64,000 nucleotides of DNA from Saccharomonospora cyanea NA-134. GTDB lineage: Bacteria > Actinomycetota > Actinomycetes > Mycobacteriales > Pseudonocardiaceae. The notes beneath the pieces were generated by a model. The model had not been told where the DNA came from and did not search any database. It was given only the letters and a program-made list of their open reading frames with translations. The position numbers were made by a program, and so were the translations under genes. Of this stretch, positions 37,101 to 42,868 are shown piece after piece. Location of the stretch: contig NZ_CM001440.1 of NCBI RefSeq assembly GCF_000244975.1, positions 2,340,325-2,404,324 on the forward strand, written 5' to 3'. How positions within the stretch are numbered: the first letter of the stretch is position 1; each line of letters starts with the position of its first letter.

Positions 37101-37316
37101 GCCCTCGGCGGCAACTCGCTGTCGGCGATGCGGCTGCTCGCGCGCCTGACGCAGCAGACCGCCGTCGAACTGGGGGTGCGCGAGCTGTTCTCGCTGTCCA
37201 CGGTGGCGGGACTCGCCGCCGAGGTGGAACAGCGGATGCTCGCCGCTCTCGACGAGCTCAGTGACGAGGAGGTCCAGCGGTTGCTGGCCGAAGAGCAGAG
37301 AAACGAGCGCGCATGA
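34188..37316 (+). CDS. NRPS module C-A-PCP predicted to incorporate asparagine
   Basis: ATG 7 bp after the PKS stop; 1042 residues. The condensation domain carries HHAVFDA (~142), where the usual Gly after Asp is Ala. Adenylation: LYTSGSTGRPKG (~609), SFDLTVTTLF (~653), NEYGPTEATVG (~728), YATGDLARW (~817), SGKLDRAAL (~921). The pocket residues I read are D-L-T-K-V-G-E-V-G-K. This differs at one conservative place from the known Asn code DLTKLGEVGK, so L-Asn is predicted. Carrier LGGNSLSAMR (~974). The acidic C-terminal tail (LDELSDEEVQRLLAEE) is a likely docking helix. No epimerase. Confidence 0.88.
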   Translation: MSENTKEWRFPASFGQERIWLANQLDPASAVYNLPCQIRQDQPLSAEQWRRALGLVVDRHEILRACLVLDGDALVQVVRADVPIEPEVHDLRALPEDEREQRTAELALAVARRPIPTDAAPLWRALLCRLAEDEWVLTFVVHHAVFDATSVVVFARDLNEACDAVHQGREPRWTEPAIQYPDYAAWQRGQVEAGALARQLDYWRAHLAGMPSVHTVPTDRPRPAKVTFDGDQVDFVLPEGLLERATDVGGRLSATPFLVLFAGYVALLSRISRADEVVVGVPVAGRDLPELAPLVGMFVNQLAIRVDCGGDPTFADLVGRARTALLDAMDNGQVPFQLVAQTVVTERDAGVQPLYQLGFNFIPDSGLEPIPYATAQDDLTVDLTRDRGRLLYRTDLFDRATAESLVQRYLRVLSAALDDPRLTLSDLPLLSETERERVLHTWNDTTEPYPDTATVHGLVEQRARSTPDAVAVDFGGRKLTYAGLNAAANRVAHRLRGLGAAPGTVVGVCAPNSADLLVGLLGVLKSGAAYVPLDPDHPAERKALIAADAAVCAVLTSGTVELPPAWAASGPAGQDGPTVLALDDPGQWAELPEHDPPPTAQAGDLAYVLYTSGSTGRPKGVQVEHRAVVAYLSWACRQYPSLSGRALLHTSASFDLTVTTLFGPLLAGGTIVDAAAGRPTFVKATPTHLALLSEEEFPSGDLVLGGEALTGDAVAAWRQRYPDTTITNEYGPTEATVGCVAARFTPGEPLPPGPVSIGRPMPNVRVYVLDERLRPVPPGVVGLLYVAGPQLARGYLGRPESTVERFPELEVAGGRVYATGDLARWRIDGTLDYLGRGDDQIALRGYRIEPGEVEAALRTLPGVREAAVAVRDGNLVGYLVGPPAADPDGVAAWSSALRRALPDYLVPTGYVVLDALPVAPSGKLDRAALPAPERGGGQPFVAPRTAAEELVAELFTDVLGVDRVGAHDDFFALGGNSLSAMRLLARLTQQTAVELGVRELFSLSTVAGLAAEVEQRMLAALDELSDEEVQRLLAEEQRNERA

Positions 37317-42868: not shown

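Follow-up and report, generated by a model that had tools for sequence, protein, structure and literature searches.

A nonribosomal peptide synthetase termination protein with a Cys thioesterase fused to an MFS exporter in Saccharomonospora cyanea NA-134 and other actinomycetes

The obafluorin synthetase ObiF1 ends its synthesis with a thioesterase (TE) that uses a Cys nucleophile and closes the beta-lactone of obafluorin, according to the portion of the source available (PMC6668435). Among the nonribosomal peptide synthetase (NRPS) TE structures compared in a second paper, in the sections available, only ObiF1 and SulM carry the catalytic Asp after strand beta 7, both of them using Cys, while AB3403 has a Cys nucleophile yet keeps its Asp at the usual place; an Asp after strand beta 7 also occurs in some type II TEs, and the shifted Asp is linked to small products (PMC11298585, section 4). 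A domain order written as A/T-KS/DH, A/T-C/T, KS/ATm/KR/DH/ACP, C/Aasn/T, C/Aser/T-Te is given for the cluster pks/nrps-3 of two Micromonospora strains (PMC8698034, available text). TEs followed by a major facilitator superfamily (MFS) part are listed, in the accessible portions of two fungal papers, for a Verticillium PKS (KS-AT-ACP-ACP-TE-MFS; PMC9495618) and for an Ophiocordyceps PKS-NRPS string containing C-A-P-Te-MFS (PMC11057048). Searches of the open-licence literature turned up no account of a bacterial NRPS-TE-MFS protein, which is weak evidence of absence since most subscription journals lie outside that scope. Some NCBI protein entries bear the name 'non-ribosomal peptide synthetase/MFS transporter'.

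Here we analysed a stretch of 64,000 nucleotides from Saccharomonospora cyanea NA-134 (the window), which contains such a fused protein within an operon of eight genes, all on the + strand (20878-45485), with start/stop overlaps on either side of the fused gene. The features are as follows (evidence in brackets).

20878..24384, + strand: first protein of the line, A-PCP-KS (Pfam)
24371..25129, + strand: stand-alone type II thioesterase, Ser elbow YGHSLGG
25126..28731, + strand: NRPS protein A-PCP-C-PCP (Pfam)
28730..34180, + strand: PKS module KS, AT, DH, KR, ACP (Pfam; start at about 28730 uncertain, frame opens at 28322)
34188..37316, + strand: upstream module C-A-PCP (Pfam, A code); its stop overlaps the fused-gene start
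37313..42868, + strand: fused termination protein C-A(Ser)-PCP-TE(Cys)-MFS, 1851 aa (translation, Pfam, relatives, A-domain code)
37427..38749, + strand: condensation domain, residues 39-479 (Pfam PF00668)
38813..40258, + strand: adenylation domain, residues 501-982 (AMP-binding 501-853; its C-terminal domain 911-982; Pfam)
40343..40543, + strand: peptidyl carrier domain (PP-binding), residues 1011-1077 (Pfam PF00550)
40634..41323, + strand: thioesterase domain, residues 1108-1337 (Pfam PF00975; best PDB match ObiF1)
40841..40843, + strand: Cys1177, predicted nucleophile, elbow GHCGVG (row counts among relatives)
41186..41188, + strand: Asp1292, predicted catalytic acid, VVGSEDPVTD (opposite the ObiF1 and SulM Asp in the alignment)
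41276..41278, + strand: His1322, predicted catalytic histidine, AGHFFLRY (row counts among relatives)
41474..42712, + strand: MFS exporter domain, about residues 1388-1800 (Pfam, hydropathy, motif A)
42865..44184, + strand: ATP-grasp ligase carrying an L-amino-acid-ligase C-terminal domain; start codon ATG, overlapping the fused-gene TGA
44181..45485, + strand: another ATP-grasp ligase of this type, in tandem; start codon GTG, overlapping the preceding stop

Translation of 37313-42868 gave 1851 residues with a single, terminal stop (GC3 = 0.92), and every Pfam match of the fused protein lies above its curated cut-off, bearing out the continuous C-A-PCP-TE-MFS polypeptide of 1851 codons that a sequence-only reading of this DNA had described. 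The C, A, PCP and TE domains follow one another in the order of an NRPS termination module, and the MFS part is matched by both MFS_1 (1392-1726) and MFS_3 (1388-1736). The assembly line comprises four A domains and one PKS module in total, and no other transporter was found among the eight Pfam-scanned operon genes. The fused protein is most likely the termination protein of this PKS/NRPS assembly line, joined by a short linker to its exporter, a pump of the drug-exporter type of MFS.

The operon is conserved as a set in Amycolatopsis regifaucium (genome G026), which has all of its genes except the type II TE; the flanking genes leave no room for it and the 55 kb contains no separate match, so the type II TE is a variable component of the line. 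In Labedaea conservation extends over the portion that could be reached, PKS through ligases, and the tandem ligases come after the fused gene in both A. regifaucium and Labedaea. One locus each of Micromonospora, Microtetraspora, Actinokineospora and Planomonospora was also compared, and no ligases were seen there at the threshold applied. The A-PCP-KS protein at the head of the operon stops after its KS without an AT, the next PKS module lying three genes further on, and has an unusual A code (DAPHLGGF-K). A separate, catabolic-looking group of genes occupies 8822-18015 and encodes a LysR regulator, an acyl-CoA dehydrogenase, a class III CoA-transferase, an enolase-superfamily protein, an aldehyde dehydrogenase and another MFS transporter.

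In some families of actinomycetes the NRPS-TE-MFS fusion is common; the sequence-only reading had known of few NRPS/MFS fusions, and that they are few is not supported. Order-wide, 71 of 397 genomes matched at E<=1e-55 (own genome counted), 63 of them carrying TE and MFS within a single frame, the other eight a free-standing MFS only, as read from the match table, on which nine of these matches were judged exclusively. Across the class 21 of 394 genomes matched at E<=1e-75 (own genome counted), and across the phylum three of 396 at E<=1e-60, two of these being the MFS part alone and the third the window itself. The samples lean to Micromonospora and Amycolatopsis, so that none of these counts is a population frequency. 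Closer to the window, a search of 61 genomes (its own and 60 relatives) gave a full-length TE-MFS match in three others (81%, 51% and 37% identity), while the 11 other genomes of the same genus had no full-length match (best E about 1e-13); the cluster is thus patchy within the genus. The best 80 of 414 relatives from public genomes include Amycolatopsis, Micromonospora, Microtetraspora, Planomonospora, Catellatospora, Embleya, Nonomuraea and others, and fused copies lie on plasmids of Streptomyces clavuligerus ATCC 27064 and of an Embleya.

Two sets of loci were examined. TE and MFS, together with C-A, share one open frame in all 111 loci of the first set (the best 80 of 414 relatives plus 31 from the genome search), and TE and MFS do so in 45 of 54 divergent loci picked among weaker matches, the remaining nine having an MFS with no TE in its frame. 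With the window this gives 157 rows, 12 of which repeat another, so that the TE-MFS junction, when searched for the same architecture, was recovered in 145 distinct sequences (window included). In three of the 45 divergent proteins (L150, L162 and L177) the A domain is only partial in the frame or stretch read.

The TE retains what appears, from its sequence, to be an intact triad, predicted as Cys1177-His1322-Asp1292, and the Cys nucleophile in a GHCGVG elbow noted earlier is confirmed as Cys1177. Over the window and the first set (best 80 of 414 relatives plus 31), 110 of 112 rows carry Cys as the nucleophile and the other two Ser, with the Asp and His each present in 112/112; Cys is likewise found in all 45 divergent fused proteins and thus in 143 of the 145 distinct sequences. 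Elbows over the 157 rows are of the CxxG type (129), CxG or CxGG (26) and SxxG (2). A Ser nucleophile (GHSSVG) was seen in just two fused proteins, L142 from Sphaerimonospora mesophila and L143 from Planomonospora sp. ID67723, whose A code likewise deviates, DTELIGT(V/I)IK; the coincidence of a Ser nucleophile with a DTEL code is suggestive, in what is one related pair. A PDB search with the TE returned ObiF1 as the best match (E 3.8e-34; 121.7 bits, against 68.5 bits for the runner-up), in keeping with the suggested likeness to a TE making a strained lactone. It was followed by a stand-alone thioesterase (6vap), the SulM TE, RifR and the surfactin type II TE. The resemblance to type II enzymes also proposed from the sequence holds too, the Asp position being common to some type II TEs in the available part of the structural comparison (PMC11298585); as an identity, a type II (editing) TE, i.e. 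a separate protein with Ser, was rejected, the window TE being fused and using Cys. Compared with two Amycolatopsis loci, dN/dS of the TE is 0.09 and 0.12.

The terminal A domain of the window carries the code DVWHVSLIDK, which we take to specify Ser, and the A domain upstream of the fused protein DLTKVGEVGK, presumably for Asn. Codes among the relatives were taken from the nearest A domain before the TE and were readable in 153 of 157 rows (the exceptions being L099, L150, L162 and L177). Of these 153 (best 80 of 414 relatives included), 116 are of the Ser type and one of the Thr type, the others being DFTK (14), DMPQ (9), DMGE (8), DTEL (2), DILQ, DVRN and DLYN (1 each); for distinct sequences the Ser type accounts for 104 of 141 readable. 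The DFTK codes are presumably Asn/Asp-like, including DFTKVGHVGK in the fused NRPS-TE-MFS frame on the S. clavuligerus ATCC 27064 plasmid (L198, 7723-14340). L182 has a further C domain inserted between A domain and TE, which means that the code read there does not belong to the last residue; by its spacing, L195 looks similar. Altogether 36 of the 153 readable rows have codes other than Ser/Thr, and 34 of those retain the Cys nucleophile, with what we take to be Gly-like and Asn-like codes among them. A rule that a Cys TE means a beta-hydroxy last residue therefore fails in 34/153 readable rows, and the predicted codes argue against a general beta-lactone reading, in that Cys by itself does not mean beta-lactone.

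The MFS part shows 12 membrane segments at about residues 1390-1790 in a plain hydropathy scan read by eye (with an extra weak peak at 1749-1765), in agreement with the 12 helices first noted. It contains MFS motif A as GALVDRVDRRR (1442-1452) and thus has the features of an MFS exporter, i.e. a Pfam MFS_1 match above cut-off, motif A and, by hydropathy, 12 helices. Membership of the H+ antiporter subfamily TIGR00900 was rejected (158.1 bits against the curated 319.6 required), and a PDB search with the MFS gave no sequence match up to E 0.1. In known MFS proteins motif A sits between helices 2 and 3 on the cytosolic side, which would place the synthetase part in the cytosol. For the same two Amycolatopsis loci dN/dS of the MFS is 0.21 and 0.32, and over four pairs it ranges from 0.10 to 0.32; with motif A kept, this indicates that the MFS is constrained, most simply as a transporter. 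The fusion is widely kept and, judged by these substitution ratios, under purifying selection.

A tree of 94 MFS sequences (the window, 22 of the 111 first-set proteins, the 45 divergent fused proteins and 26 unfused ones) placed all 68 fused tips in one clade (support 1.0), with the free-standing MFS of locus L036 as its sister (support 0.99). Eight free-standing MFS proteins of the same subfamily, listed from NRPS loci and without a TE in frame (L036, L189, L191-L194, L196 and L197), join a clade with the fused ones at weak support (0.55), and their existence means that fusion is not required. In L193 (1331-10319), the one free-standing-MFS locus scanned in full, the MFS lies between a C-A-PCP gene, whose end its frame overlaps, and an NRPS gene ending in a reductase domain. 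Pairwise distances over 64 proteins (leaving out L150, L162, L177 and L181, which have no full A domain) correlate most closely between TE and MFS (Pearson 0.94, Spearman 0.87), less between A and MFS (0.84 and 0.57), with C and MFS intermediate (0.88 and 0.69). These distances fit, but do not prove, a TE and MFS that travel together while A domains change; as C too follows TE and MFS, the comparison with A argues weakly for exchange. Most likely the fusion arose once and the TE-MFS unit was then retained by different assembly lines.

We propose that the finished chain would be transferred to Cys1177 as a thioester, that an internal nucleophile would close the chain and so free the product, and that the attached MFS would pump this product out at the site of release. 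It is reasonable to infer that release and export would be coupled at the membrane, as was originally suggested, and the same fusion across many soil actinobacteria suggests that the two are physically linked. That the product of this line leaves through the MFS, with the tether placing release at the membrane, is in our judgement probable, although the two amino-acid ligases of the operon could act after release, which is awkward with immediate export. The nearest precedent for closure is ObiF1, by analogy with which the beta-hydroxyl of the last residue would attack to give a beta-lactone; with a Ser-coded last residue and an ObiF1-like TE this outcome is plausible here, if on balance unlikely. 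Given a slightly less than even chance is that the Cys TE instead yields a larger ring (macrolactone, lactam or diketopiperazine) or hydrolyses the chain, with no four-membered ring and the MFS still exporting. This would suit the 34 of 153 readable fused proteins with Cys behind non-Ser/Thr A domains and a line of four A domains plus a PKS module, as well as the small products connected with the shifted Asp in the available text (PMC11298585, section 4); on the other side, the nearest solved TE is ObiF1, the triad aligns with those of two ring-strain TEs and the terminal residue here reads Ser.

It seems rather unlikely that the MFS serves mainly as a membrane anchor, or as a self-protection pump for by-products, with no handover from TE to MFS: co-localisation would come with any fusion and related MFS genes stay unfused in NRPS loci, but motif A is kept and dN/dS is 0.10-0.32 in all four pairs. 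A fusion on paper only, the MFS being made separately from an internal start at Met1385 or the chain being cut, is improbable. A Met occupies that position in 113 of 157 proteins, and in the window a weak ribosome-site-like GAAGG ends 11 bases 5' of it; against this, the Met is absent in 44/157 and the frame is open across the TE-MFS junction in 156 of the 165 loci screened (first set with the best 80 of 414 relatives included). A hidden stop between TE and MFS, the weak point named in the sequence-only reading, is excluded together with sequencing error in general by the open frame in 111/111 and 45/54 loci, and an assembly error joining two genes, for which we found no supporting point, is vanishingly unlikely with the same frame recurring in many genera. 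In its boldest form the proposal makes TE-MFS a once-evolved release-export cassette, retained by actinobacteria on many assembly lines, in which the Cys TE would seal a reactive and in many cases strained product and hand it directly to the pump, the product at no point being free in the cytosol; this we regard as quite doubtful. If true, it would amount to covalent channelling from a megasynthase to a transporter.

It is rarely settled by what route the products of assembly lines are exported, or how the producing cells escape self-poisoning. With synthesis, release and export on one polypeptide in many culturable actinomycetes, including S. clavuligerus ATCC 27064, a direct handover from synthase to pump becomes testable. 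A Cys TE beside a Ser-type A domain also points to a large set of uncharacterised lines as possible makers of beta-lactones or of other reactive products.

Like the window protein, the fungal strings place a TE and then an MFS in an assembly line, and, as presented in the portions available, they may be gene-model artefacts or strings for a whole cluster. The domain order of Micromonospora pks/nrps-3 matches the window line, Asn and Ser included; it is a predicted cluster for which the text available names no product and mentions no MFS (PMC8698034), and one of its two strains, M. okii TP-A0468, corresponds to our locus L103 (among the best 80 of 414 relatives). With the SulM TE (sulfazecin beta-lactam; PDB 8w2c, 8w2d) the window TE has in common a Cys nucleophile and the aligned Asp, going by the accessible sections (PMC11298585), whereas the Gln-Cys-Asn motif of SulM is His-Cys-Gly in the window; a beta-lactam TE of the SulM type was ruled out, there being no Gln-Cys-Asn, Dap code or sulfotransferase in the eight operon genes scanned. 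The closest likeness is to ObiF1 (PDB 6n8e), which has a Cys nucleophile, aligned Asp and His and similar elbow surroundings (YGHC...GNALAV). As in ObiF1-type Cys TEs, the window Asp falls after strand beta 7 (position II) in the sequence alignment and the chain would end in a beta-hydroxy residue: where ObiF1 releases on such a residue, the window counterpart would be Ser by its Ser-type code. The window elbow, GHCGVG, has one residue more than the GHCAG of ObiF1 and departs from the GXCXG pattern. After its TE, ObiF1 continues into an MbtH-like domain, according to the available text (PMC6668435), and the window protein into an MFS exporter.
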